From Gammaproteobacteria bacterium (lineage in GTDB: Bacteria; Pseudomonadota; Gammaproteobacteria; Steroidobacterales; Woeseiaceae): 40,633 nt of DNA. Below the pieces are notes generated by a model that ran no database searches, was not told the DNA's origin, and saw only the letters and a program-made list of their open reading frames with translations. The translations under genes and the position numbers were made by a program. How positions within the stretch are numbered: position 1 is the stretch's first letter; the number at the start of each line of letters is the position of its first letter. Below, one piece after another: positions 2,573 through 40,338 of this stretch. The DNA lies in NCBI GenBank assembly GCA_030425905.1, contig JAUHZT010000013.1:1-40633 (forward strand), read 5' to 3'.

Positions 2573-3499
2573 CTAATCTTTCGAAAAATAATCAGCCGAC
2601 TGGTAGAGCCCGGTCGACTGTTTCATGAGCTGCATGAGCACGTCATTCGCGAGCGAACTCGCACCAAACCGAAACCACTCCGGCGTCATCCACGCGTTGC
2701 CCAGCGTTTCGTGCAACATGACGAGATAATGAATGGCCAGCTTTGACGTCGAGATACCGCCGGCCGGCTTCATACCAACCATGCGACCTGTATCGCGATA
2801 GTAGTCTCGAATTGCTTGCAACATCACCAGCGTGACCTGCATGGTGGCCGCCGGCTGAACCTTGCCGGTCGATGTCTTGATAAAGTCAGCGCCGGCATGC
2901 ATCGCGAGCACGCTCGCACGACGTACCCGGTCGAGCGTGCCCAGCTCACCTGTCTCCAGGATCACCTTCAGGTGTGCGTCACCGCAAGCTTCTTTAACGG
3001 CAACGATCTCGTCGAAAACATAGCGGTAATTGCCCGCCAGGAACTCGCCGCGGGAGATAACCATATCGATTTCATCGGCACCCGCTGCAACTGCCGTGCG
3101 CGTATCTTCCAGTTTTACCTTGCGCGATGACATGCCACTTGGGAACGCCGTCGCCACGGAGGCAATTCTAATATCGTGTCCGGCAAGCGCTTCTTTCGCG
3201 ACGCTCACCATGTTGGGGTAGACACACACGGCCGCAACGTGCGGCAAACCCGGGTAGGCATCGTGCAGATGAATCGCCTTCTGGCACAACTGCCGCACTT
3301 TGCCCGCTGTGTCCTGGCCTTCCAGTGTGGTGAGGTCGATCATGCTCAGAATCAGCTTGAGCGCCTCGACCTTGGCAGACTTCTTGATCGACCGCGTCTG
3401 AAACCGGGCGACACGCTCGTTGACACCGACCTCATCGACGGCGGGTACGCATGACAGGTCAGGCAGGCGTCGCGCTTTCTTGACCGCTGCAACGCTCAT
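2573..3499 (-). CDS. deoC: Deoxyribose-phosphate aldolase
   Basis: 308 aa with [18 protein letters not shown] (Schiff-base Lys) and GMKPAGGI motifs; start overlaps the deoD stop. Confidence 0.93.
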
Positions 3500-4203
3500 G
3501 CGATCGCCGTGTCGAGTGCAACATCGATCATTTCATCGAAGGTCGTTGCGCGTTCGTCCGAGGTCAATGCCGCGCCGCTTGGAATATCGTCGCTTACTGT
3601 GCAGATGGCGAGCGCTTCAACGCCGTGCTCGGCAGCAATGGGAAAGATGCCGGCCGCCTCCATCTCAACACCGTAAATATTGTATTTGGCCATCGTCTCG
3701 AACATAGCCGGGTCCGGCGTGTAAAAAAGGTCGGCGGAAAAAATATTACCCACGTGATAACGAACATCGCGCGCCCTGGCAGCAGCAACGGCCTTTTGCA
3801 CGAGATCAAAACTCGCCAGTGCCGCGAGATCGTAGCCACCGAAACGCATCCGGTTCACATTCGAATCCGTGGAAGCTCCCTGGGCGATGATGATATCGCG
3901 CAATTTCACCTGCGGGTGCGAGGTGCCGCAGCTACCGACGCGCATCACACGTTTTACGCCATAGGACTCGATCAACTCGCTCGTATAAATCGAGGCAGAC
4001 GGTATCCCCATGCCGTGCGCCATCACCGAAATCGGCTGGCCTTTGTAGCTGCCGGTGAAACCCCACATATTGCGCACGTCAGTGACACGACGCGGGTTTT
4101 CAAACCAGTTATTAGCGATATATTCCGCGCGCAGCGGGTCGCCGGGCATCAGCACCGTCTCGGCGAAGTCGCCGGGTGCCGCATTCATGTGTTTGGTTGC
4201 CAT
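3496..4203 (-). CDS. deoD: Purine-nucleoside phosphorylase, DeoD type
   Basis: Likely start [40 protein letters not shown] and SDD motifs. Confidence 0.95.
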
Positions 4204-4213
4204 AGCTTTCTTT

Positions 4214-4243
4214 AATTTAGTGTGGCTTGAATTTAGTGTGGCT
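4214..4243. repeat. Two 14-bp perfect direct repeats (aatttagtgtggct) at 16-bp period in the deoD leader
   Basis: 4214-4227 and 4230-4243 are identical; 11 bp upstream of the deoD start codon on the minus strand. Confidence 0.85.
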
Positions 4244-4261
4244 AGTGAAATTGCGCTGTAG

Positions 4262-5023
4262 TCACCATCGAGACTGTGCAGACATGCCGCCGTCCACAAC
4301 CAGGTTCGCGCCCGAAATCCAGCGCGCAGCGGGACTCAGCAGGAACAATACCGCGTCGGCAACGTCGTTGGGAACCCCGAGCCGACCCAGCGGCGCCCGG
4401 TTCTGCCAGCGCTCCACCCCTTGCGGCCATTCATCACCCAGGCCCGGCCGATCGATCAGGCCCGGCGACACGGCGTTGACGCGAATACTGTCGCCACCGT
4501 ATTCAAGCGCAGCGGCACGCGTAAACATCAACACGCCCGCTTTGCTGCTCGCATAGTGTGCGTGCCCAACGGCCGGGTCCAGGCCCTCAATTGACGCAAT
4601 ATTGACAATGGCCCCACCCAGCGACTGGCGGCGCCAGGACTTCGCCGCCTGCTGGGTCACGAGGAACGCACTGTCGAGTGTGGCTTGCTGCATCCTGCGC
4701 CAGTCATCCAGCGAGAGTCCGGGCAGGCCGTGGAGGTGCTGCGCAGCGGCATTGTTGACGACACCGTGCGGGCGAATGTGCTCGAATAACGCGACCACAG
4801 CGGCTTCATCGCGCAGGTCGGCACGCACAACGTCGCCGCGCCCGAGTGATTCGATCAACGCCTCGGCCGCCGCGAAATTGCGATGGCAATGCGCAATGAT
4901 CGTAGCGCCAGCCTCGTGCAAGCGCCTGGCGATACCCTGGCCGATATTGCCACTCGCGCCGGTCAGCAAAATCGACTGGCCTTCGAGATCGAGCAATTGA
5001 CTGACTGCCGGTACCGTGTGCAT
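4262..5023 (-). CDS. SDR family NAD(P)-dependent oxidoreductase
   Basis: [10 protein letters not shown] Rossmann motif, NNAA, YASSK active site, C-terminal VDGGMS. Confidence 0.9.
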
Positions 5024-16014: not shown

Positions 16015-16425
16015 GTGGCAATGACTAACACGACGACAGATCAGCAACTGGCCGCCCGGGCACTCGCCGTGCGCAAAAGCGCCTACGGCCACTATTCAGG
16101 CTTTAAGGTCGGTGCGGCCTTGCTTGATGACAAGGGCCATGTACATGTCGGCTGTAATGTCGAGAATGCGGCCTACCCCCAAGGCAGTTGTGCTGAAACC
16201 GGTGCGATCGCCGCCATGGTTGCGGCTGGCGGGAAACGGATTCGAACCATTGCCGTAGCCGGAGGACGTGAGCAGGTCAGTACCTGCACACCGTGCGGCG
16301 GTTGTCGGCAGCGTATCAGCGAGTTCGCCGATACCAACACCCGCATCCTCGTTCTGAACGATGCCGATAGCTGGCAGTCTTTCTCTATCCAGGACCTGTT
16401 GCCCGCGTCATTCAAGCTCGACTGA
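16015..16425 (+). CDS. cdd: Cytidine deaminase
   Basis: 136 aa; NVENAAYPQGSCAETGAI and CTPCGGCRQRISEF zinc motifs; GTG or internal ATG (16021) start. Confidence 0.93.
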   Translation: MAMTNTTTDQQLAARALAVRKSAYGHYSGFKVGAALLDDKGHVHVGCNVENAAYPQGSCAETGAIAAMVAAGGKRIRTIAVAGGREQVSTCTPCGGCRQRISEFADTNTRILVLNDADSWQSFSIQDLLPASFKLD

Positions 16426-17284
16426 ATGAAGCCGCCGTGGCGGTGAGAAATCGCTCGAGCGTTACCCGGTCCGGCATCGAAGGCTGTGCTCCCCTGCCGG
16501 TCGCCGCAATCGATCCGGCTGCACAGGCGAACTCCAGCGCGCGCTGCGGCGGCATGCCTTCAACCAGTGCCACGGTAAGCGCAGCGGTGAAGGCATCACC
16601 GGCCCCCGTCGTATCAACGACCTCAACCACCGGTGCGCGTGTTTCTGCAACCATGCGGCCGTGGTCGGTCAGTCTCGCGCCGGCTGCACCGTACGTGGTC
16701 GCCACGAGTCCGCGCCCGAGATCAAGACGATCGCCATACCAGTCCGACTCGGTTTGATTGACGATCAACAGGTCGGCGACGGCGAATAGCTCGTCATCGA
16801 CCTCGCGGGCGGGCGCCAGGTTGATACACACGAGTCCGTGAAAATGTGCGGCGGCAGCAAGAATGGTGCTTGCGGGCACTTCCAGTTGGCAGATCAGTGC
16901 ATCGGCCGCAGGCGGCGGGAGGCGTTCCGGTACCAGGCTCGCATTTGCACCCGGCGCGACCACGATGTGGTTCTCTCCCGATGACGCCACACAAATCATG
17001 GCCACGCCGGTCGGCAATGTTGGGTGCACTGCGCAGTAGCTCAGGTCCACGCCGGCATCGCGCAAAAAGGCCAGCGCTTCTTCAGCAATGGCATCCTGGC
17101 CGACCGCAGCGATGAGGATGACGTTGGCGCCAAGACGGCGCGCCGCAAGCGCCTGGTTCGCACCCTTGCCGCCCGGGAAACGCGCCATCGTCGCGCCGGT
17201 TACCGTTTCGCCCGGCAGTGGCAGACGCTCTACCGACGCGGACAAGTCCAGGTTGACCGAGCCCACGACCACGATATTGGTCAC
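16412..17284 (-). CDS. rbsK: Ribokinase / PfkB-family pentose kinase
   Basis: GSVNLDLSASVERLPLPGETV, FPGGKGANQA and DTTGAGDAFTAAL motifs. Confidence 0.85.
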   Translation of the reverse strand: MTNIVVVGSVNLDLSASVERLPLPGETVTGATMARFPGGKGANQALAARRLGANVILIAAVGQDAIAEEALAFLRDAGVDLSYCAVHPTLPTGVAMICVASSGENHIVVAPGANASLVPERLPPPAADALICQLEVPASTILAAAAHFHGLVCINLAPAREVDDELFAVADLLIVNQTESDWYGDRLDLGRGLVATTYGAAGARLTDHGRMVAETRAPVVEVVDTTGAGDAFTAALTVALVEGMPPQRALEFACAAGSIAATGRGAQPSMPDRVTLERFLTATAASFSRA

Positions 17285-17350: not shown

Positions 17351-18571
17351 TCAAAACGTTAGCAGCAGCCCGGCCAGCGCGGCGCTCATCAAGTTGGACA
17401 ATGAGCCGGCCGCGACGGCGCGCAGGCCGAAACGTGCGATCAGTTCGCGCTTTTCAGGCACCAGCACACCGAGGCCACCCAGCAGAATGGCAATCGACGA
17501 CAGGTTGGCGAAACCGCACAGGGAGAATGTCACGATCGCCCGCGTGCGTTCGCTTGCGGCACCCAGATAGTCGTTCAGATGCGAGAAGGCGACGATTTCG
17601 TTGAGCACCAGCTTTTCGCCAAACAAGGCACCCGCGGCCTGCGCTTCAGCCCAGGGAATGCTCAGCATGTACATCACGGGTGCGAAAACCCAGCCAAAGA
17701 TCATTTGCAGGGTGAGCTCATAGCCGAACCAGCCGGCAATAACCCCGACCAGGCCATTGAACATGGCAATCAGCGCCACGAATGCGATCAGCATGGCGCC
17801 AATATTGACGGCCAGCTTGAGCCCGTCGCCAGCACCGACAGCGGCAGCCAGTATAACGTTCTCATGCTGGCTGGGTTCCATCTGCAGGCGTTCCTGACCG
17901 CGTGTGTCGCCAGCTTCGTCAGGCATCAGCATTTTCGCCATCAGCAAGCCACCCGGCGCCGCCATGAAACTTGCCGCCAGCAGGTATTTGAGCTCTGCGC
18001 CCATGAGCATGTAAGCGGCGAGAACCGTTCCCGCGACCGAGGCCAGGCCCGACACCATGACGGCAAACATCTGCGGCTCCGTCAAGCCGCGCAGGTACGG
18101 CCGCACCACTAGCGGTGCCTCCGTCTGCCCAACGAAGATATTGGCCGCCGCATTCATCGACTCGACACCACCCGTGCCAATTATCCGGTGCAAGGTGCCG
18201 CCGACAATACGCACGACCCACTCCATGATGCGCAAGTGGTAAAGCACCGACATCAGGGCCGAGAAGAAAATAATTATCGGCAGGACATTGACCGCAAAGC
18301 TGAAACCGATAACTTCAACGTTTGCGAGCGGCCCGAACACCATGTCGATGCCCACCTGCGAATAATTCACCACGGCGAGCACACCCATGCTGAGCCAGTT
18401 GATCGTTTCACGGCCCCAGCTTGAATACAGGACGAATACTGCAAGCAATACCTGCAGGGCAAACGCAGCACCGACCACCCGCAGGTTGATCGCGCGCCGG
18501 TTGGTTGAGAACATCGCCGCTACAACGAGAATCAGCGCGATCCCCGCAAGTCCAATAAGCTTGGCCTGCAT
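17351..18571 (-). CDS. nupC: NupC/CNT concentrative nucleoside transporter 1
   Basis: [38 protein letters not shown] and [15 protein letters not shown] motifs. Confidence 0.93.
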
Positions 18572-18652: not shown

Positions 18653-19966
18653 CTAGCTGGTCAGAATGTCCACAATCACCGGGCGCGCGGCAACCGCTTC
18701 TTCGGTGATTCGGCAAGCGGCCAGCAAACTATTGGCGGCCTTGTCTGCCGCCGCCGCTGATGCTGCGTGCACGGTTGCCAGCGGTCGATCCTTGTCCAGC
18801 CGCTGCCCGATCGCCGCGAACCCGGAGAAGCCCACCGACAGGTCGAGCGTTTCTCCGACTTTGCGGCGTCCGCCGCCCAGTTCAATGACGGCATTGCCGA
18901 CCCCGCGCGTATTAACAGTATTCAATATGCCTTCTGCGTAAACGGGTCGTACAACTTTTGCCGCTGGCAGGTACTTATCAAACTTGTCGACAAAGTCGGT
19001 GGGGCCGCCAAGCTCTGCACACATACGGCCGAACACATCGGCCGCAGCGCCACTCGTGACAGCCTGTTCGCACCGTGCACGTGCCACCGCCTGATCATCG
19101 CAGATGCCGCCGGCAACCAGCATCTGTGCGCAAAGCCCCATCACCACCTCGTTGAGGCGCGGCTCGCGTTCTTCGTCGCGGAGGTAGCTCATCGACTCGC
19201 GAATCTCGACCGCATTGCCGGCCGTGTAGCCGAGCACCTCGTTCATGTCGGTTATCAGCGCATGTGTCTTGAGGCCGGCCTTGGCGGCAGTGCGGATGAT
19301 GCTCAGCGCCAGCTCGCGCGCCCGTTCTTCGGTTTCCATAAAGGCGCCGCTGCCGACCTTGACGTCCATCACCAGTGCTTCGAGGCCTGCCGCAATTTTC
19401 TTGGAGAGAATGGAAGCCGTGATCAGCGGAACCGACTCAACCGTGCCTGTCACGTCGCGCACTGCGTAGAAGCGACGGTCAGCCGGCGCGAGATCCTCCG
19501 TCTGGCCGATGATGGCGCAGCCCGCCGACTTCACGACACGTCGGAATAGCTCGAAGTCCGGCATCGACTGATAGCCGGGTATGCTTTCCACCTTGTCCGT
19601 TGTGCCGCCCGTATGCCCGAGGCCGCGTCCCGAAATCATCGGCACGTAGCAACCGCAGGCAGCCGCCACCGGCGCAAGCAGGAAGCTCACCTTGTCGCCA
19701 ACGCCGCCTGTTGAGTGTTTGTCGACGACGGGCCCGTCGAGGCTTTCGGCAGACCAGTCGAGCACGGTGCCCGATGCGGCCATGGCCAGCGTCAGCTTGC
19801 CGGCCTCATCGAAACTCATGCCGTTCAGAAATATCGCCATTGCCAGTGCCGATATCTGTTCCGCAGGCAGGCTGCCGTCGGCGAGTCCGTCGACGAAAAA
19901 ACGGATCTGCTCATCGCTGAGCGCGCCGCCGTCACGTTTGTTGCGAATTACGTCAGTAAAAAGCAT
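18653..19966 (-). CDS. deoA: Thymidine phosphorylase
   Basis: Start MLFTDVIRNKRDGG; DKHSTGGVGDKVS, SGRGLGHTGGTTDKVES, KVGSGAFM. Confidence 0.95.
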   Translation of the reverse strand: MLFTDVIRNKRDGGALSDEQIRFFVDGLADGSLPAEQISALAMAIFLNGMSFDEAGKLTLAMAASGTVLDWSAESLDGPVVDKHSTGGVGDKVSFLLAPVAAACGCYVPMISGRGLGHTGGTTDKVESIPGYQSMPDFELFRRVVKSAGCAIIGQTEDLAPADRRFYAVRDVTGTVESVPLITASILSKKIAAGLEALVMDVKVGSGAFMETEERARELALSIIRTAAKAGLKTHALITDMNEVLGYTAGNAVEIRESMSYLRDEEREPRLNEVVMGLCAQMLVAGGICDDQAVARARCEQAVTSGAAADVFGRMCAELGGPTDFVDKFDKYLPAAKVVRPVYAEGILNTVNTRGVGNAVIELGGGRRKVGETLDLSVGFSGFAAIGQRLDKDRPLATVHAASAAAADKAANSLLAACRITEEAVAARPVIVDILTS

Positions 19967-19971
19967 CAGTC

Positions 19972-20871
19972 TTACTCGAAACCTCTGAGTGGCAAGTCGG
20001 GGCTGCGCTGTAACCAGTTCTCTGCCGGGTAGTGACTGGTCCGGTCGATGGCGTGCAGGGTGTAAGCGTGGCGCGAGACCGATGAGCGATTGGCGGCACT
20101 CATGTGCGGTGCGCGCCCGTTGAATACAACCAGTGTGCCCGCCTTGGCTTCTGCGGGCAAACGCTGCTCCTCGGGCCACTCACCAGCGTCGAGAATGTCG
20201 GTCGTCAATGTGCCGTCCGGGCGTCGATAGTTGCGCGCCTTGAGCGGACCTTTGTGCGCGCCAGGGATAAATTGCATGCAACCATTCTCAAGCGTCGCAT
20301 CTTCGAGCGCGAACCAGAACCCGACGCAGGACTCCGGTTCGGTATAGATATACGTTGAGTCCTGGTGTGAAACCACTTCACCGCCAATGCGCGGTGGCTT
20401 GAAGATATACATCGACTGAATAATCGCCGGCTTGCAAAAACCAAGACGCCGGGCCAGCGCAGCCAGTTCCGGCGTACGTGAGAAGCGATCGAAAACCGGG
20501 TCCAGGTCGTGCATCGCGTGCCCCATTTTATTAAGGCTCAGGTGTTTCGGCTGGCGCAGCTCGCCGCGCTCATCGAAAGCGTCGTCTTCCAGGAAAAAAC
20601 GAATCTTGTCGCCGGAATCGATGAAGTAACGGTCATCGAGCTGATTCTGCGTCGTCGTCGAAAAAACACTGCGTACCTCGGTGGGATCAAATGCCTCCAC
20701 AAGCTCCTCGGCGCGTGCTTTCAGTTCGGCGCATTTCCGGACGGAACAGAAGTCGCGCAGAATAATCACGCCGGCCGCGTCAAATGCGGCCCGCATTTCA
20801 TCCGTCAGCCGTCCGCCGGCCGGCGCAGCAAACTGAGGCAACTCTGCAATCCGCCCAGCTACGTGTGTCAT
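19972..20871 (-). CDS. Phytanoyl-CoA dioxygenase (PhyH) family Fe(II)/2OG oxygenase, PHYHD1-like
   Basis: SGDKIRFFLEDDAFDERGEL, QSMYIFKPPRIGGEVVSHQDSTYIYTEP (HxD), EDATLENGCMQFIPGAHKG, distal His and SRHAYTLH Arg. Confidence 0.9.
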   Translation of the reverse strand: MTHVAGRIAELPQFAAPAGGRLTDEMRAAFDAAGVIILRDFCSVRKCAELKARAEELVEAFDPTEVRSVFSTTTQNQLDDRYFIDSGDKIRFFLEDDAFDERGELRQPKHLSLNKMGHAMHDLDPVFDRFSRTPELAALARRLGFCKPAIIQSMYIFKPPRIGGEVVSHQDSTYIYTEPESCVGFWFALEDATLENGCMQFIPGAHKGPLKARNYRRPDGTLTTDILDAGEWPEEQRLPAEAKAGTLVVFNGRAPHMSAANRSSVSRHAYTLHAIDRTSHYPAENWLQRSPDLPLRGFE

Positions 20872-21098
20872 GTCTTTTTCTTCATTGTCTGGTGCTGCCC
20901 CGCGGCCAACAGGCCCGTGGCCCTGGCAAGACGGCAGCATCGCGCCGCTGAATGCCCACTGGCTTGCGCCAAAAGAATACGCCCATTATTCCATAGCCGT
21001 GCGGCGCATGAGCAACTCTTGCCCCGTTATCCGCAGAACGGCTTTTGGCGCTCGCGAGGCGCTTTGGAGTGCTACAATCAGCCGCAAAAGGACGCCCA

Positions 21099-22589
21099 AT
21101 GAAAAGCATAACATTTTGTTTTATATTCGTTTTTTCTCTTTTCGCCGTGTCTGCGTGCGATCCCGGATCGAGTTCCGCCCCTGCCGCGGACAATGCCGAT
21201 GAAGCGGCCCCGGCCGCCGCGAATGACGCTACGATCGACCTGATTATCGACGGCGATCATGTGCTGACGATGGATGCCGATCGTTCGATCATCCAGAATG
21301 GCGCGGTCGCGATCAACAACGGCGTAATTGTTGCCGTCGGCCCGGCTGCTGACATTCATGCGCAATACTCGGCACGCGAAACGCTGGCGGGAACCAACCG
21401 TGTGGTGCTTCCGGGTCTTGTAAATGGCCATTCGCATGCCGCGATGACGCTCCTGCGCGGCGTCGCCGACGACCTGGCACTGATGGACTGGCTCACAAAC
21501 TACATTTTCCCCGCCGAGGTTGAATTCGTAGACTCCGAGTTTGTTCGCATCGGCACCGAACTCGCCTGCTGGGAAATGATTCGCGGCGGCACAACCACCT
21601 TCGTCGATATGTATTACTACCCGGATACCATTGCCGAAGTCGTCGACCAGTGCGGCATGCGCGCAATGATTTCAGCAACCGTTATCGGTCAACGCAGCCC
21701 TGATGCAGAGGGTGCCGATGACTCAATCAGCAAGGGCCTTGGTTTCATTGATCGCTGGCAGGGCCGCAACCCGCGAATTACACCAATATTCGGGCCGCAT
21801 GCAAACTACACACTGGATGCCGAGCAGTTGGCCGCAACGCGCAGGGCAGCCATGCAGCATAACGTGCCGATCAGTATCCACATGGCGGAATCACCCTTCG
21901 AGGTTGAGTACGCGAAAGAGACTTACGGCATGACGAGCATTGCTATGTTTGAGTCCATCGGCTTTTTCGAAGGGCCAACCATTGCGGCGCATGTTGTCTG
22001 GCCCACCGACGATGAAATTCCCGTTCTCGCAAAGCATAACGTTGGCGTGATTCACAACCCGACGTCGAACATGAAAATTGCCTCGGGTATTGCGCCGATC
22101 ACCGCCATGCTCAAAGCCGGCGTACACGTAGGTCTCGGCACCGACGGTGCCGCGAGTAACAATGACCTCGATATGTGGGAAGAAATGCGGCTTGCGTCGT
22201 TACTGCAAAAAGTGGATCGCATGGACCCCGAGGTGTTGCCGGCAATGACCGTATTGTCGATGGCGACGATCAGCGGTGCGACAGCTATTGGACTAGACAA
22301 GACCATTGGTTCAATTGAGGCCGGCAAACAAGCCGATATCATCCAGGTCGCGTTTGAAGATGTGCACCATGTGCCTACGTACGATGTCGTATCACACCTC
22401 GTCTACGTCACTGACGAGCAGGACGTCGCCAGTGTGGTGGTTGACGGCCAGGTTCTGATGCACGAACACGAACTCCGCACGCTCGATACCGCTCGTATTC
22501 GCAAGGAAGCAACGGCGCTTGCGGCCGATATTCAGCGTGCGCTGGTGACCAGAAACAACAATAACAGGGGAGACAAAAATGGAGATTGA
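21099..22589 (+). CDS. Amidohydrolase lipoprotein, MTA/SAH (adenosine) deaminase-like
   Basis: Lipobox FAVSAC; NGHSHAAMTLLRGVADDLALMDWLTNYIFPAE, HMAESPFEVEY, GTDGAASNNDLDMWEEM. Confidence 0.88.
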   Translation: MKSITFCFIFVFSLFAVSACDPGSSSAPAADNADEAAPAAANDATIDLIIDGDHVLTMDADRSIIQNGAVAINNGVIVAVGPAADIHAQYSARETLAGTNRVVLPGLVNGHSHAAMTLLRGVADDLALMDWLTNYIFPAEVEFVDSEFVRIGTELACWEMIRGGTTTFVDMYYYPDTIAEVVDQCGMRAMISATVIGQRSPDAEGADDSISKGLGFIDRWQGRNPRITPIFGPHANYTLDAEQLAATRRAAMQHNVPISIHMAESPFEVEYAKETYGMTSIAMFESIGFFEGPTIAAHVVWPTDDEIPVLAKHNVGVIHNPTSNMKIASGIAPITAMLKAGVHVGLGTDGAASNNDLDMWEEMRLASLLQKVDRMDPEVLPAMTVLSMATISGATAIGLDKTIGSIEAGKQADIIQVAFEDVHHVPTYDVVSHLVYVTDEQDVASVVVDGQVLMHEHELRTLDTARIRKEATALAADIQRALVTRNNNNRGDKNGD

Positions 22590-27121: not shown

Positions 27122-27309
27122 GGGATGGCCTGTTCAGCCGCGGCTTCGACCGGGTCCCTGACACGCTCGTCAGGATTCGCAATCGCGAGATAAATAGTAA
27201 ATAGGCAACCTGCAACGGTCATGCCCGGAATAGCAATAATGAGCCACACCCAGGCATTGCGGTACCACGGACCGCCCAATGGCTGACTGCTGCTACCCGC
27301 CTTACTCAT
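27118..27309 (-). CDS. ccoH: FixH/CcoH-like protein, shortened (N-terminal TM part only)
   Basis: MSKAGSSSQPLGGPWYRNAWVWLIIAIPGMTVAGCLFTIYLAIANPDERVRD resembles the FixH N-terminus; sits between ccoG and ccoI. Confidence 0.7.
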   Translation of the reverse strand: MSKAGSSSQPLGGPWYRNAWVWLIIAIPGMTVAGCLFTIYLAIANPDERVRDPVEAAAEQAIP

Positions 27310-28687
27310 TGACCGGACCACGGAAGCGACTTTCCTCGATCACTCGAACTGCGGGGTCAGCGATGTCTTGCACGATGAATTCTATCCGGTTGCCACCGCG
27401 CACATTCTCGTGTGGCACCGTCACGCTTACTGGCAGGCTAAAGACAGACTCTGCAGGCACCCGCACGATGTCGGCCGTGCGTACGCTGATGCCGTCCAGC
27501 CCGCGCACGGTCACCGAGTACTCTCTGTCGATATTCTGTTTGTTGACGATGCGCAAGGTGTAGTCGTTCTCGATACCCTGTCGCCCCACGTCCCGGTAAA
27601 GTGCGTTGCGATCGCGCAGCACATCTACAATGACCGGCTTACGCACCACGATGGCCGTCGCCATGCTGGCTATCAACACGACCAGGATCAAGCTGTAGAT
27701 GATCGTTCGCGGGCGCAATATCTGGTAGCGCTTGTGCTGGATCGCATGCTCGGTTGTATACCGGATCAAGCCACGCGGATACTCCATCTTATCCATGACG
27801 GCATCACAGGCATCGATACAGGCCGCGCAGGCGATGCACTCGTACTGCAGCCCTTTGCGGATATCGATACCGGTCGGACAGACCTGCACACACATGGTGC
27901 AGTCGATGCAGTCGCCCAGCCCCTTTTCTTTCGGGTCAACGCCGCGGCGCCGTGCGCCACGCGGCTCACCGCGCTCCTCGTCGTAGGTAATAATCAGCGT
28001 GTCACGATCGAACATTGCACCCTGGAATCGCGCATAGGGGCACATGTACTTGCAGACCTGCTCACGCATGTAACCGGCGTTGCCGTAAGTAGCGAAACCG
28101 TAGAACAGTACCCAGAACCACTCCCAGGGCCCTGCCGTGAAGCTCGCGAGACTTGCGCCAAGTTCACGGATATCCACGAAATAGCCCACGAAGGTGAAGC
28201 CTGTGTACAGGGCCAGCGAGATCCAGAGAAACTGCTTCAGCGACTTGCGCCAGATTTTATTGAACGTCCATGGCGCCTGGTCGAGCTTGATGCGCTTGCC
28301 TCGATCGCCCTCAACAAGTTGCTCGATGCGCACGAATGCTTCTGTCCAGACCGTTTGTGGGCAGGCAAAGCCGCACCAAAGACGACCGGCCAGTGCCGTA
28401 AAAAAGAACAGGCTGACAGCCAGCACGATCAATAACAGTGCGAGGTATATGAAGTCCTGTGGCCAGAGCGTCAGGCCGAAGATGTAAAACTTTCGTGCCG
28501 GAAGATCGAACAGTACGGCCTGACGACCGCCCCACTCCAGCCAGGGCCCGCCATAGAACATACCCAACAGCACGTACATTGCGAGTCGACGCAGCGTGGC
28601 AAAACGCCCCTTGGCCTCGCGCGGGTATATCTTGCCTTCACTGCGATAGAGTTGGCCGTACTCGTAGTTGCCCGATGGCGAATTCAT
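27302..28687 (-). CDS. ccoG: cbb3 oxidase accessory protein CcoG (polyferredoxin)
   Basis: 461 aa; CGFACPQTVWTEAFVRIE, CIDCTMCVQVCPTGIDIRKGLQYECIACAACIDACD. Confidence 0.94.
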   Translation of the reverse strand: MNSPSGNYEYGQLYRSEGKIYPREAKGRFATLRRLAMYVLLGMFYGGPWLEWGGRQAVLFDLPARKFYIFGLTLWPQDFIYLALLLIVLAVSLFFFTALAGRLWCGFACPQTVWTEAFVRIEQLVEGDRGKRIKLDQAPWTFNKIWRKSLKQFLWISLALYTGFTFVGYFVDIRELGASLASFTAGPWEWFWVLFYGFATYGNAGYMREQVCKYMCPYARFQGAMFDRDTLIITYDEERGEPRGARRRGVDPKEKGLGDCIDCTMCVQVCPTGIDIRKGLQYECIACAACIDACDAVMDKMEYPRGLIRYTTEHAIQHKRYQILRPRTIIYSLILVVLIASMATAIVVRKPVIVDVLRDRNALYRDVGRQGIENDYTLRIVNKQNIDREYSVTVRGLDGISVRTADIVRVPAESVFSLPVSVTVPHENVRGGNRIEFIVQDIADPAVRVIEESRFRGPVNE

Positions 28688-28699
28688 TAAAACCTGCCC

Positions 28700-28990
28700 T
28701 CAATGTTCGATGCGATGAGGCCAGTTTCGCTTGCGCCGGACGAGGCGCAAAATAAGCCAGCCGCCAATCCAACCCTGCAACCAGAGAAAGACAAAGCCAA
28801 TTGCGTAACCGGCATTGCGGCTATCCATGTACGGGCAATTAATTGCATCGACAATATCGAGGGGGTCCAGGAAAGCGAATAACAGCACCGAGAATGCAGC
28901 GGCGGTAAGAAAGGAGATCCATGTCAGCACACCCAGCTTTTGCCAGTCTCTTGGCCAATCGTGGACATCATGTGCTGCGGGTTCCGGCAT
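28700..28990 (-). CDS. Uncharacterised small membrane protein in the cco cluster
   Basis: 96 aa with two hydrophobic helices; lies between ccoP and ccoG with short gaps. Confidence 0.65.
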   Translation of the reverse strand: MPEPAAHDVHDWPRDWQKLGVLTWISFLTAAAFSVLLFAFLDPLDIVDAINCPYMDSRNAGYAIGFVFLWLQGWIGGWLILRLVRRKRNWPHRIEH

Positions 28991-28996
28991 CGCGGC

Positions 28997-29878
28997 TCAA
29001 CGAGACAGGCTATAGACGTACGCGGCGAGAATTCGCGCACGATCTGGCCCGATCAAAGCCTCATGCGCTGGCATGACACCGTTGCGGCCTTCCATGATGG
29101 TCTTGCGAATAACCGTGTCAGAACTACCATACAACCAGATGTCGTTGGCAAGATTCGGCGCACCGAAGATCGGGTTGCCGTTACCGGTCGGGCCGTGGCA
29201 GGCGATGCACAGCATCATGTATTTCGCATGCGCCGGCGAACTTGTGTCCTGTCCGTCCTGCATCGACTTTACATACTCAACCATGGCCGTAACTTCACTC
29301 TCGCCGCCGAGCGCCGGGCCGAGTGCCGGCATGACCGCATTGCGCCCCTTGAGAATCGCCTGTTCGATCTGGGCCGGTTCCCCGCCCCATAGCCATTCTT
29401 CATCGGTGAGATTCGGGAAGCCCGGCGCGCCCTGTGCGCTCGATCCGTGGCACTGCGCGCAATAGTTGGCAAACAGGCTGCTGCCGAGGCTCATCGCCTG
29501 CGGATCGTTTACGAGAGCCTCAACGTCCATCGCGGAGAAGCGTTCGAAAAGCGGCGCATAACGCTCTTCGGCCGCCGCCATTTCGGCTTCATACTGAGCG
29601 ACCTGTGACCATTTGGCGACGCCATCCACTACCACAAGTCCCGGGTAATAGATCAGGTAGCCAATACTCCAGATCAACGTGCCGATAAACATCCACAGCC
29701 ACCAGCGCGGCAAGGGGTTGTTCAGCTCCCGGATGTCCTCGTCCCAGACATGCGCCTCCGAGCCGGCAATCTCGTCGGGCGACGGTCCCTGCCGTTTGCT
29801 GAACATGATCAGCCAGAAGCAGGCCAGTATGCTGACGACCGTGCCCACAAAAACATACCAGGCCCACGCACTACTCAT
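28997..29878 (-). CDS. ccoP: cbb3 oxidase diheme subunit CcoP
   Basis: Start MSSAWAWYVFVGTVVSILACFWLIMF; CAQCH and CIACH heme c motifs. Confidence 0.93.
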   Translation of the reverse strand: MSSAWAWYVFVGTVVSILACFWLIMFSKRQGPSPDEIAGSEAHVWDEDIRELNNPLPRWWLWMFIGTLIWSIGYLIYYPGLVVVDGVAKWSQVAQYEAEMAAAEERYAPLFERFSAMDVEALVNDPQAMSLGSSLFANYCAQCHGSSAQGAPGFPNLTDEEWLWGGEPAQIEQAILKGRNAVMPALGPALGGESEVTAMVEYVKSMQDGQDTSSPAHAKYMMLCIACHGPTGNGNPIFGAPNLANDIWLYGSSDTVIRKTIMEGRNGVMPAHEALIGPDRARILAAYVYSLSR

Positions 29879-30077
29879 GACTAGCATCCCTTGTTGATTG
29901 TTGCGCTGCGCGCGGTCGGTCGGCGGCCGCCGGCGGGCGGCTGTCATCTTCAAGTGGCAACAGTTCCGCCTCGTGGAATTCAGCCGTGCGTTTGCGGCTG
30001 AAACTGCGCACGCAGATACCGATAAACAGCAGCATCACGACTGCCGTCACTAAACCGCGAAATACATTGATGTCCAT
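29871..30077 (-). CDS. ccoQ: CcoQ/FixQ subunit
   Basis: 68 aa, single TM, between ccoO and ccoP. Confidence 0.85.
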   Translation of the reverse strand: MDINVFRGLVTAVVMLLFIGICVRSFSRKRTAEFHEAELLPLEDDSRPPAAADRPRAAQQSTRDASHE

Positions 30078-30086
30078 AAGCCCGCC

Positions 30087-30692
30087 CTAACGCGCCGACC
30101 GCGCGGTGCCAAGATTCTGCAGATAGGCAATCAAGGCATCCATCTCGGTAACGCCCTCAACAGCCGCTGCGGCGCCTTCAATATCCGCATCGGTATAAGG
30201 GTCGCCCAGCATCTTCAACGTGCGCAGTTTGCGCTCCATGAGCTCGCCATCAAGCATCGTGGTGGCCAGCCAGGGGTACGACGGCATGTTCGAATCGGGC
30301 ACCAGGTCTTGCGGTTTGAGCAGGTGAATTCGGTGCCATTCGTCGCTGTAACGCTTGCCTACCCGTGCGAGATCCGGACCGGTCCGTTTGGAGCCGAACT
30401 GGAACGGGCGATCGTAAACAAACTCGCCGGCAACCGAATACGGCCCGTAACGTTCAGTTTCACTGCGAAACGGCCTGATCTGCTGCGAATGGCAGTTGTA
30501 GCAACCTTCGCGAACATAAATATCCCGACCGGCAAGCTGCACCGCCGGATAAGGCTTGATCCCCTCATACGGTTCCATCACCGACGAGCTCGCCATCAAC
30601 GGCACGATTTCAACCAGACCGCCGATGCTGATCACAATCACGATCAAAATCGCCATCAGGTTGATATTTTTTTCGACTTTTTGATGATTCAT
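30087..30692 (-). CDS. ccoO: cbb3 oxidase monoheme subunit CcoO
   Basis: [50 protein letters not shown]. Confidence 0.95.
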
Positions 30693-30696
30693 GTCG

Positions 30697-32118
30697 CTAC
30701 GCTCCGGCCGGCTCGATCACTGCAACGGGTTGCGGCTCAACCGAGCGCACTGTCCGGTACACGTTGTAGACCATGATCAGCATGCCCGAGAAAAAGACCA
30801 GCCCACCAAGCAGGCGTATGCCGTAGTACGGGTAGGTGAACTTGACGGTCTCAATGAACGAGTAAGTCAACGTGCCGTCGTCGTTCAGCGCCCGCCACAT
30901 GAGGCCCTGGTTAATACCCGAAATCCACATCGATACGGCGTACAGGACCACACCGATCGTTGAGGTCCAGAAATGCACGTCGATAAGACGGGTGGAGTAC
31001 ATCGATTCCTTGTTATAGAGCCGGGGCAACATGCAGTACAGCGACCCGATGGTCATCATGGCGACCCAGCCGAGCGCGCCCGAATGCACGTGACCAATTG
31101 TCCAGTCCGTGTAGTGCGACAGCGCGTTGACAGTCTTGATCGACATCATTGGCCCTTCGAACGTGGACATGCCATAGAACGACAAGGACACGATCATGAA
31201 CTTGATGATCGGGTCAGTCCGCAACTTATGCCAGGCACCCGAGAGCGTCATGATGCCGTTGATCATGCCACCCCATGAGGGCGCCAGCAGGATTAGCGAA
31301 AAGACCATACCGATCGACTGTGCCCAGTCGGGCAATGACGTGTAATGCAGGTGGTGCGGACCCGCCCACATGTAAATAGCGATCAGGGCCCAGAAATGCA
31401 CAACCGACAGGCGGTACGAATAGATCGGCCGATTCGCCTGTTTTGGCACGAAGTAATACATCATGCCGAGGAAGCCGGCCGTCAGGAAGAAACCAACCGC
31501 ATTGTGCCCGTACCACCATTGCACCATCGCATCGACAACGCCCGTGTAGATCACGTAGGACTTGGTAAGCGACACCGGGATCGCCAGATTATTGAAGATG
31601 TGCAGAACGGCGATGGTGAGAATAAACGCGCCATAGAACCAGTTGGCCACGTAGATATGCTTGACGCGCCGCCGTCCTATCGTGCCGAAAAACACGATCG
31701 CATAGGCCACCCAGACAACGGCTATCAGCAGGTCAATCGGCCATTCGAGCTCGGCATACTCTTTGCTCTGGGTAATGCCCATTGGCAATGTGATGGCGGC
31801 CAGTACGATGACAAGCTGCCAGCCCCAGAAGGTAAACGCCGCAAGCCTGGTAAATGCGAGGCGAACATGGCAGGTCCGCTGTACGACGTAGTACGACGTG
31901 CCGATCAGTCCACAACCACCGAACGCAAAAATAACGGCGTTGGTATGCAGTGGCCGAAGCCGACTGTAGGTCAGCCAGGGCTGTTCAAAGCTCAGGCCCG
32001 GCCAGATCAGTTCTGCTGCGATGTAGAGGCCGACCAACATGCCGACCACACCCCAGACGACGGTCATGATCGTAAATTGCCGAACGACCTTGTCGTTGTA
32101 GGTTGAGTCCAAATCCAT
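30697..32118 (-). CDS. ccoN: cbb3 oxidase catalytic subunit CcoN
   Basis: 473 aa; [57 protein letters not shown]. Confidence 0.95.
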
Positions 32119-37461: not shown

Positions 37462-37884
37462 TCAGGGCACCAGCCGCAGCTCCTTCGCCTTTTGTACCGC
37501 CTGCGTACGGCGCGCCACGTCGAGTTTCTGGTAGAGCTTGTGCAGATGCGTCTTGACAGTACTCAGCGAGATGAATAGCCGCTCTGCAATTTCCTGGTTG
37601 CTGCAACCCTCGGCCAGCAAGACCAGCACTTCACTTTCCCGCTCGCTGATACCCAGGTACTTCTGCGCCTTGCCATTCCTGACAAAATCCTCGTGCACCG
37701 TGCGATTGCTTAGCTTGACGCCCAGCCAGGCACCGAAGGCCGTGAACAATACGCAAAGTACAACGACGTAGATCTCGGCCGTAAAGGTTCGGAGCGCGTA
37801 CTGGTAGTCGAGCCAGGCAAGCAACAAAAAGCAGGTGGCCAGTGCCAGCCCGTAGATAAGAATGAACTTTCGGGTCTCGTTCAA
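37462..37884 (-). CDS. Membrane-anchored LuxR-family transcriptional regulator
   Basis: Two N-terminal TM segments, then [54 protein letters not shown] start overlaps the deoB stop. Confidence 0.88.
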
Positions 37885-39092
37885 TTGTCCCGATGCAGGA
37901 AACTGCGGCCGTAATCCATCGGTGCAAGCTCGAAGTAACTTGCAAGAGTTTGTCCGATGTCCGCAAATGTGTCGCGTTTGCCGATTGAACCGGGCTTTAG
38001 ATGCGCGCCAAAGCAGACCACGGGAATGTGTTCACGCGTGTGATCGGAACCGGCCCAGGTTGGATCGCAGCCATGATCGGCCGTGATGATCAGCAGATCC
38101 TCGTCTTGCATCGCATCGAGCAGCTCAGGCAGCCGCCGGTCGAAGTATTCGAGCGCAGCCGCATAGCCCTCTACATCGCGCCGATGCCCGTACAGCATGT
38201 CGAAATCGACAAAGTTGGTAAAGACGATTGAACGGTCCGGCGCAGCTTGCAGTTCGGTAAGCGTCGCATCGAACAACGCGGCATTGCCTGTCGCCTTTAC
38301 TTTCTTCGTGATGCCCTGGTGGGCGTAGATATCGGCAATCTTGCCGATACTGATTACTTCGCCGCCCGCCTCGGCCAGTTTGTCGAGCACCGTCTTGGCA
38401 GGCGGCGGCGTGGTGAGGTCGCGGCGATTTCCGGTGCGCGTGTAGTTGTCAGGGCCGGTACCGATAAACGGTCGGGCAATGACCCGGCCGATGTTGTACT
38501 CATCGACCAGCTCGCGCGCAATCTCACAAAGCGAGTAGAGACGTTCGAGACCAAACGACTCCTCGTGGCAGGCTATCTGAAACACACTGTCGGCCGAGGT
38601 ATACACAATCGGCTTGCCTGTCCTGACATGCTCGTCGCCAAGCTCGGCAATAATCGTTGTGCCCGATGAATGGCAGTTGCCCAGCACACCGGGCAGCTCT
38701 GCTTTCTCGATCAGATCGGCGAGCAGTTTTTCCGGGAACGTGTTGGTTTTCTCGGTGAAATAGCCCCAGTCGAACAGGACCGGTACGCCCGCAATTTCCC
38801 AGTGCCCGCTGGGCGTATCCTTGCCGCTGGAGAGCTCGGCCGCATAGCCGTATGTGCCTGTCACCTCGCCCACGCTGCCAGTCCCTTCGGGATAGTCACC
38901 AGCACTGTCGCGCGCCGCCTCGAACAGGCCGAGCCGCGCAAGGTTCGGTAATTTGAGCGGACCTGCGGCCGAACGCGCCCGCACGCGTGCGATGCTGCCA
39001 AGCGTGTTGGCGCCATCGTCGCCGAACGTGTCGGCATCGTCGGTAGAACCGATGCCAAACGAATCAAGGACCAGAACAATTGCGCGTGTCAT
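37881..39092 (-). CDS. deoB: Phosphopentomutase
   Basis: [72 protein letters not shown]. Confidence 0.95.
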
Positions 39093-39099
39093 AGAGTCT

Positions 39100-40338
39100 T
39101 TATAAGCCTTGCAGCGAGAAAAACAAGCCGGCCAGCGCGGCGTTCATCAGGTTGACGAGCGTGCCGCCAATCACCGCCTTCAGCCCGAGCCGCGCGATGT
39201 CGTGGCGGCGCTCTGGAATAACAGCCCCCAGCCCGCCGAGCAGGATGGCAATTGATCCAAGATTCGAAAACCCGCACAGCGCAAACGTGACGACAAGTTG
39301 AGTATACGGCGACAGGCTGTCCTTAACTTCCATAAACGCCGCATATGCATAGAACTCATTAAGCACCAGCTTTTGCCCAATCAGGCTGCCCGCCTGTAGC
39401 GCCTCGCTCCAGGGCACGCCGAGCAAGAACGCAATTGGCGAAAACAGCAAACCGAGCAGGTATTGCATTGTCAGGTCTTCCACCCCGAACAGCGCCCCGC
39501 ACCATCCGAGCAGGCCGTTGAGCATGTAGATAATCGCAACAAAAGCGATCAGCATGGCACCAACACTCATCGCGATGTGCATGCCGGTCATGGCACCGTT
39601 GCCGATAGCCTCAAATATATTGGCGGGCTGCTCTTCATCGGCCAGCGCACCGTCGTCGGTCTGCTCAGCGCGAGTCTCGGTTTCCGGCATCATGATCTTG
39701 GCTATCAGCAGGCCGCCCGGGGCAGCCATGAAACTCGCCGTCAACAAGTAGCCAAGATCAACCCCCATGTTCGCGTAGGCCATCATCACGCCACCAGCGA
39801 TCGTCGCACACCCACCGGTCATAACAGCAAACAACTCGGACTGTGTCATCTTGGCGAGATAGGGGCGCACCACGAGAGGTGCATCCGTATGCCCGACAAA
39901 AATATTTGAAGCGGCCGATACTGACTCCGCCTTGCTGGTTTGTAACAGTCGCTGCAGACCACCGCCGATAAATCCGACGACCGCCTGCATGACGCCAAGG
40001 TAGTAAAGCGCCGACATCAACGCGGCAAAAAACACGATGACGGGCAGCACGTTAAAGGCAATCGTAAAACCGAGCGATGGCGTGATCTGGTCGCCGAACA
40101 CGAATGCAATGCCGTCATTCGCATAGTTGATGACGTGCTGCACGCTGCGCACGACCGACGCAAGCGCCTGCCTGCCCCACGGTGCGCTGATGATAAAGGC
40201 CGCGAGCAGCGCCTGGATAAGGAATGCGAATCCAATCGTGCGCTTGTTGATCGCCGAACGCGCATTCGAAAGTAACCACGCAAGCAAAAGAATTATCGCT
40301 ACTCCGACGATACTCATCAGGTAACTAGGCATGCTCAC
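39100..40338 (-). CDS. nupC: NupC/CNT concentrative nucleoside transporter 2 (variant GHTD motif)
   Basis: [53 protein letters not shown]. Confidence 0.92.

Follow-up and report, generated by a model that had tools for sequence, protein, structure and literature searches.

A GHTD variant of the base-recognition motif in the second CNT-family nucleoside transporter of a Woeseiaceae nucleoside island, with a predicted preference for purines

The DNA analysed here, a Woeseiaceae stretch of 40,633 nucleotides (hereafter the window), encodes two concentrative nucleoside transporters (CNTs) that differ at the motif contacting the nucleobase, which raises the question whether they import different classes of nucleosides. 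The first, NupC1 (406 residues; 17351..18571, minus strand), reads GQTE at this motif (18119..18130, minus strand), whereas the second, NupC2 (412 residues; 39100..40338, minus strand), reads GHTD (39883..39894, minus strand), at the position of residues 153-156 of the Vibrio cholerae transporter vcCNT, the numbering of which is used below. Both motifs were read from translation on the minus strand, of 18104-18148 for NupC1 and of 39868-39912 for NupC2. The codons of NupC2 are CAT for His154 (39889-39891), ACG for Thr155 (39886-39888) and GAT for Asp156 (39883-39885), compared to CAG for Gln (18125-18127), ACG for Thr (18122-18124) and GAG for Glu (18119-18121) in NupC1. Translation and codons thus bear out the difference between the two proteins pointed out in an earlier note on this DNA.

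The two transporters share 49% sequence identity, and both are vcCNT-like. NupC2 matches the family model TIGR00804 over its full length with 463.8 bits, above the curated cutoff of 442, and NupC1 scores 440.1 bits, slightly below it. NupC2 also aligns end to end with vcCNT (PDB 3TIJ, E = 7.5e-135) and CNTnw (PDB 5L26, E = 8.4e-132), which have the same fold and are 52-55% identical to NupC2 in structural alignment. A structural search of the PDB with the AlphaFold2 model of NupC2 (mean pLDDT 83.5, pTM 0.86) revealed vcCNT and CNTnw as the top matches, with TM-scores of 0.82-0.89, followed by bovine and human CNT3; the model has the CNT fold with its HP1 and HP2 hairpins. The ribose-binding residues Glu332, Asn368 and Ser371 and the stacking Phe366 are all present, as are the Na+-site residues Asn149, Val152 and Ile184, with Ser183 replaced by Thr. 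vcCNT and CNTnw share these ribose-side and Na+-site residues, but differ from NupC2 in reading GQTE. Relative to vcCNT, Gln154 is changed to His and Glu156 to Asp, and Thr155 is unchanged, so that the earlier description of two altered base-motif residues next to an intact ribose side holds. As judged from these residues, NupC2 is a CNT, though not one with the GQ[TS]E-type base site defined by Gln154 and Glu156. It also lacks the Met at the Gln154 position that marks the hCNT2 type, and hence is not of that type, even though it may function as a purine CNT. Escherichia coli NupC is likewise a TIGR00804-type symporter of the CNT family, but is about 30% identical to NupC2, reads GQSE, is H+-coupled and transports adenosine as well as pyrimidines (PMC5465479, PMC11241209).

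Experiments have established position 154 of CNTs as a determinant of base choice (PMC4139061, PMC7440666, PMC5465479). In vcCNT, Gln154 directly contacts uracil, whereas Thr155 and Glu156 act via a shared water molecule, which adenosine and ribavirin displace while binding clearly more weakly (PMC4139061); the affinity of vcCNT for uridine is about ten-fold that for adenosine (PMC4139061, PMC7440666). In hCNT1, the equivalent Gln320 and Ser319 are both involved in switching the transporter from a pyrimidine to a broad or purine preference, and the E343A mutant of hCNT3 binds uridine at ~1.19 mM (PMC7440666). Purine-preferring human CNT2 (SLC28A2) resembles NupC2 in replacing the base-contacting Gln of HP1; however, it uses Met, with Gly/Thr/Val at the other selectivity positions (PMC7440666), whereas NupC2 has His combined with Asp156 and Gly187. 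In Na+ medium, hCNT3 with the substitution Q341C takes up less cytidine and thymidine, and its Na+:H+ uptake ratio is altered (PMC5465479). Such a shift in hCNT3 Gln341 mutants, along with the position of HP1 next to the Na+ site, would fit an alternative in which the His/Asp pair alters cation coupling or pH dependence, through a titratable His near the Na+ site, rather than base choice. We consider it improbable, as Asn149, Val152, Thr183 and Ile184 of the Na+ site are kept in NupC2 and the gene-content signal described below concerns the substrate class.

A search for the degenerate exact pattern [IV]F[VIM]GHTDAP in one genome per species of 84,980 GTDB species matched 38 stretches, 30 of which hold a CNT at that place. 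The titles of these 30 records name Woeseiaceae, Gammaproteobacteria, Chromatiales or an unspecified proteobacterium, and the pattern found no other CNT gene with GHTD in the 84,980 species. The earlier note had proposed a survey of the variant, and this search places it in 30 CNT records of Woeseiaceae-type or unspecified proteobacteria. The other eight stretches, which come from Oscillospiraceae, Bacteroidales, Selenomonas and others, lack a CNT in their vicinity and seem to be chance matches, and a wide spread of GHTD among CNTs is thus ruled out. So is a sequencing error or one-off mutation, given that the motif recurs in these 30 records and in many relatives; the orthologues, 64-88% identical, all have His154, and both codons vary synonymously. 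A search of mainly freely accessible literature found no paper on a His variant at position 154 or on Woeseiaceae nucleoside transporters.

For comparison, 217 non-redundant CNT proteins from the order, class and phylum were aligned with vcCNT (218 in total). In this set, which was seeded with NupC2 relatives so that its counts are not natural frequencies, residues 153-156 read GQTE in 88 proteins, GHTD in 30, GQSE in 22, GMVE in 20, GHTE in 15 and GMIE in nine, besides smaller groups. Residue 154 is Gln in 125 of the 218 aligned sequences, His in 47, Met in 41, Val in two, Pro in two and Leu in one; calling GQTE the canonical CNT motif was too strong. There was no sign that GHTE is common elsewhere in the class: its short pattern matched 12 of 369 genomes, a frequency not exceeding that of its reversed control, and none of the ten loci fetched contains a CNT. 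Two further variants were seen at this site. Two NupC2 orthologues (L073 and L180; G029 and G242) read AHTD and have also lost the otherwise conserved Gly153, and the CNTs of genus g23 (L194 and L195; G208 and G238) read GMDS and thus have Ser where Glu156 is near-universal; the GMDS CNT of G208 is followed by a gene for a nucleoside hydrolase (L342).

Phylogenetic analysis using FastTree grouped 46 of the 47 His154 proteins into a single clade (support 1.0, stem 0.30), in which the 32 GHTD or AHTD tips are nested (support 1.0) in a GHTE grade, which consists of other genera of NupC2's family and of a second family of the same order, termed f9. With the motif columns removed, parsimony gave two changes to His154, in the main clade and in one independent GHTE protein (G790/L155), and two to Asp156, in the GHTD clade and in one GMVD protein. 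The nesting and the parsimony result indicate that the motif likely changed from GQTE through GHTE to GHTD, with Gln to His as the first step and Glu to Asp as the second. The independent GHTE protein (L155/L309) is vcCNT-like and lies outside the Woeseiaceae clade, with none of the marker genes within about 6 kb.

Among the 47 proteins, His154 is encoded by CAT (21) or CAC (26), and residue 156 by GAT (17), GAC (15), GAA (10) or GAG (5). As His154 is invariant in the clade while its codon varies synonymously, it is conserved as a residue rather than as DNA; from these alignments, the GHTD change is fixed in its lineage. The same invariance tells against neutral drift, in which the substitutions are merely tolerated and both transporters have the same substrate range, and so does Glu156, present in 168 of the 171 CNTs outside the His154 set. 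Gln to His and Glu to Asp each take a change of one base, and hitchhiking of the whole nupC1-deoA block could account for the gene-content signal, but we regard drift as quite improbable. In addition, the His154 set carries Ser148 (46/47), Cys181 (45/47) and Ala or Gly at residue 187 (45/47; Gly in NupC2), a position occupied by Thr or Ser in 144 of the 171 others. The smaller side chains at 156, 181 and 187 would fit a roomier base pocket in the His154 transporters.

The window as a whole is a nucleic-acid and nucleoside catabolic island. Its first part comprises aldehyde dehydrogenases, deoC, encoding deoxyribose-phosphate aldolase (2573..3499, minus strand; TIGR00126, 187.4 bits, above cutoff), deoD, encoding purine nucleoside phosphorylase (3496..4299, minus strand; TIGR00107, 324.8 bits, above cutoff), and a TonB receptor. 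The middle part comprises an endonuclease/exonuclease/phosphatase-family protein, a 5'-nucleotidase-domain protein, an e(P4)-like phosphatase, the cytidine deaminase gene cdd (16015..16425, plus strand; TIGR01354, 136.8 bits, above cutoff), a ribokinase-like PfkB kinase gene downstream of nupC1 (16412..17284, minus strand; PF00294, 181 bits; TIGR02152, 226.7 bits, below its cutoff), nupC1 itself, and upstream of it deoA, encoding thymidine phosphorylase (18653..19966, minus strand; TIGR02643, 621.9 bits). The mechanical open reading frame of deoA extends to 20179, with the family match beginning at residue 72. The last part contains a PhyH-family protein, a deaminase-like amidohydrolase, cbb3 oxidase genes, typA and the deoB-nupC2 pair, in which deoB, encoding phosphopentomutase (37881..39092, minus strand; TIGR01696, 537.7 bits), starts seven bases downstream of nupC2.

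The amidohydrolase (21045..22589, plus strand; PF01979, 257.8 bits) belongs to the TRZ/ATZ - adenosine-derivative deaminase group and is conserved in the island and in relatives, including f9. Its scores with the 5'-deoxyadenosine and MTA/SAH deaminase models would be in keeping with NupC2 importing an unusual adenosine derivative, such as 5'-deoxyadenosine or methylthioadenosine, for this enzyme. However, these scores lie below the curated cutoffs, with PRK09045 as the top NCBIfam match, and nupC2 is strictly linked to deoB, the product of which requires a free sugar that can be phosphorylated at the 5' position; we regard such a substrate as very improbable.

Comparison of the relatives revealed distinct partners for the two transporters. 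nupC1 is fixed beside deoA, often with cdd nearby, and deoA is present in all 22 searched genomes that have a full-length nupC1-type CNT, these CNTs being mostly read as GQTE and in a few cases assigned by similarity alone. A RihA-like hydrolase and/or ribokinase-like gene accompanies nupC1-deoA in 11 of the 12 two-CNT loci examined; the hydrolase is absent from that place in the window. By contrast, the gene after nupC2 is deoB in all two-CNT and f9 loci that were examined by tblastn. The context does not split cleanly into purine and pyrimidine sides: adenosine deaminase stands on the nupC1 side in other genera, and NupC1-only genomes retain deoD as well as deoB. Since these genomes keep both genes, purine uptake needs no NupC2, and NupC1 is probably not pyrimidine-exclusive but takes up purines as well.

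The family f9 provides a natural deletion case. Its four genomes (G044, G057, G071 and G091; 96, 94, 81 and 73% complete, respectively) represent one genus and hence one evolutionary event, and their only CNT is the His154 (GHTE) protein. They contain deoB in four of four and deoD in three of four cases, but deoA, the PF01156 nucleoside hydrolase and cdd in none of the four. The locus of G057 runs deoC-deoD, TonB receptor, amidohydrolase and deoB-nupC, with overlapping parts in G044 and G071; the remaining PF01048 protein, inspected in G044 and G057, resembles XapA only weakly and had no Udp match. A further genome, G034, was left out of the nupC1/deoA absence cases, as it has a nupC1-like fragment at a contig end (L343). 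DeoD and DeoB without DeoA, PF01156 hydrolase and Cdd allow purine nucleosides to be catabolised, but not thymidine, uridine or cytidine by those routes. This enzyme set, together with the sole His154 CNT, supports a purine role of the His154 transporters.

A similar linkage is found in Helicobacter pylori: its nupC (HP1180) shares a transcript with deoB and a gene for a purine nucleoside phosphorylase, and normal uptake of adenosine, inosine and guanosine depends on it (PMC3368855). As its closest E. coli relatives, NupX and PsuT (PMC3368855), both read GQNE, by analogy purine uptake by a CNT may not require His154.

Altogether, we propose, at slightly better than even odds (about 0.52), that NupC2 is a purine-favouring importer of the vcCNT branch with a rebuilt base pocket, and that NupC1 serves pyrimidine, perhaps broad, uptake. 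The earlier note had predicted divergent base specificity, with two nucleoside classes taken up by separate operons. The structural reasoning behind it is sound, and the gene neighbourhood and f9 support different classes, but a strict division is not retained, given the probable purine uptake by NupC1; the same two lines of evidence go beyond that note in suggesting a direction, with NupC2 on the purine side and NupC1 on the pyrimidine side. Working against a clean purine assignment are the adenosine deaminase on the nupC1 side in other genera and the fact that DeoB also serves pyrimidine-derived sugar phosphates.

A broader NupC2 also has to be weighed, in which the His/Asp site accepts purines while still admitting pyrimidines, and the two transporters differ mainly in affinity or regulation. 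DeoB is common to both branches, the S319G/Q320M mutant of hCNT1 becomes broad rather than purine-specific, and vcCNT and hCNT3 differ in selectivity despite identical contact residues, which means that contacts alone do not determine it (PMC7440666). Such breadth is nevertheless considered less likely in view of f9, the sole CNT of which is a His154 protein in genomes lacking all three pyrimidine-side enzymes tested.

For the purine-favouring NupC2, the following mechanism is envisaged. The protein would be an elevator-type, cation-coupled importer, probably using Na+, that binds ribose as vcCNT does. Loss of Gln154 would remove the direct pyrimidine contact, and His154 could hydrogen-bond to, or stack on, a purine. 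Asp156 would withdraw the carboxylate that uracil uses through water, leaving room for a purine at the Thr155/Glu156 water site. Na+-coupled elevator movement, for which the site residues are conserved, would then pass the nucleoside to DeoD and DeoB, the former splitting purine (deoxy)ribonucleosides and the latter channelling the products to ribose-5-phosphate or deoxyribose-5-phosphate. NupC1 would supply the branch of DeoA, nucleoside hydrolase, Cdd and the ribokinase-like kinase. More tentatively, and short of an even chance, His154/Asp156 might be a third natural, purine-selective solution to base selection, reached in two ordered steps and serving an island with dedicated pyrimidine and purine lines, besides the known Gln (pyrimidine or broad) and Met (hCNT2, purine).

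The choice between purines and pyrimidines in CNTs is only partly explained, as the vcCNT/hCNT3 pair illustrates (PMC7440666). NupC1 and NupC2, encoded by the same genome, share their ribose and cation sites but not their base motif, and together with the surviving GHTE intermediates this natural pair lends itself to testing whether base choice is set by residues 154 and 156. The two transporters also suggest how nucleic-acid-scavenging bacteria divide nucleoside uptake.

Several features of the neighbourhoods were observed in addition. The PhyH-family protein, of the Fe/2-oxoglutarate type (19972-20940, minus strand), lies directly upstream of deoA-nupC1, its usual place in relatives; 22 loci share this arrangement (e.g. 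L168, L171, L178 and L182). Given its operon with a ribonucleoside hydrolase and a ribokinase-like gene, this dioxygenase might hydroxylate deoxynucleosides. In the window, the cbb3 oxidase genes (27302-32118) separate nupC1 from nupC2, and in relatives an aa3-type cytochrome oxidase operon (subunits I, II, two subunit III-like, and IV) often precedes nupC2-deoB (L076, L079, L166-L168, L171 and L175). Among 20 non-Gln154 loci, taken as a Met154 calibration and mostly uninformative, a nucleoside-cleavage marker gene was found only at two: a GMAE CNT adjoins a XapA-like phosphorylase gene at L305, and a GPIE CNT adjoins a DeoD-like gene at L308.
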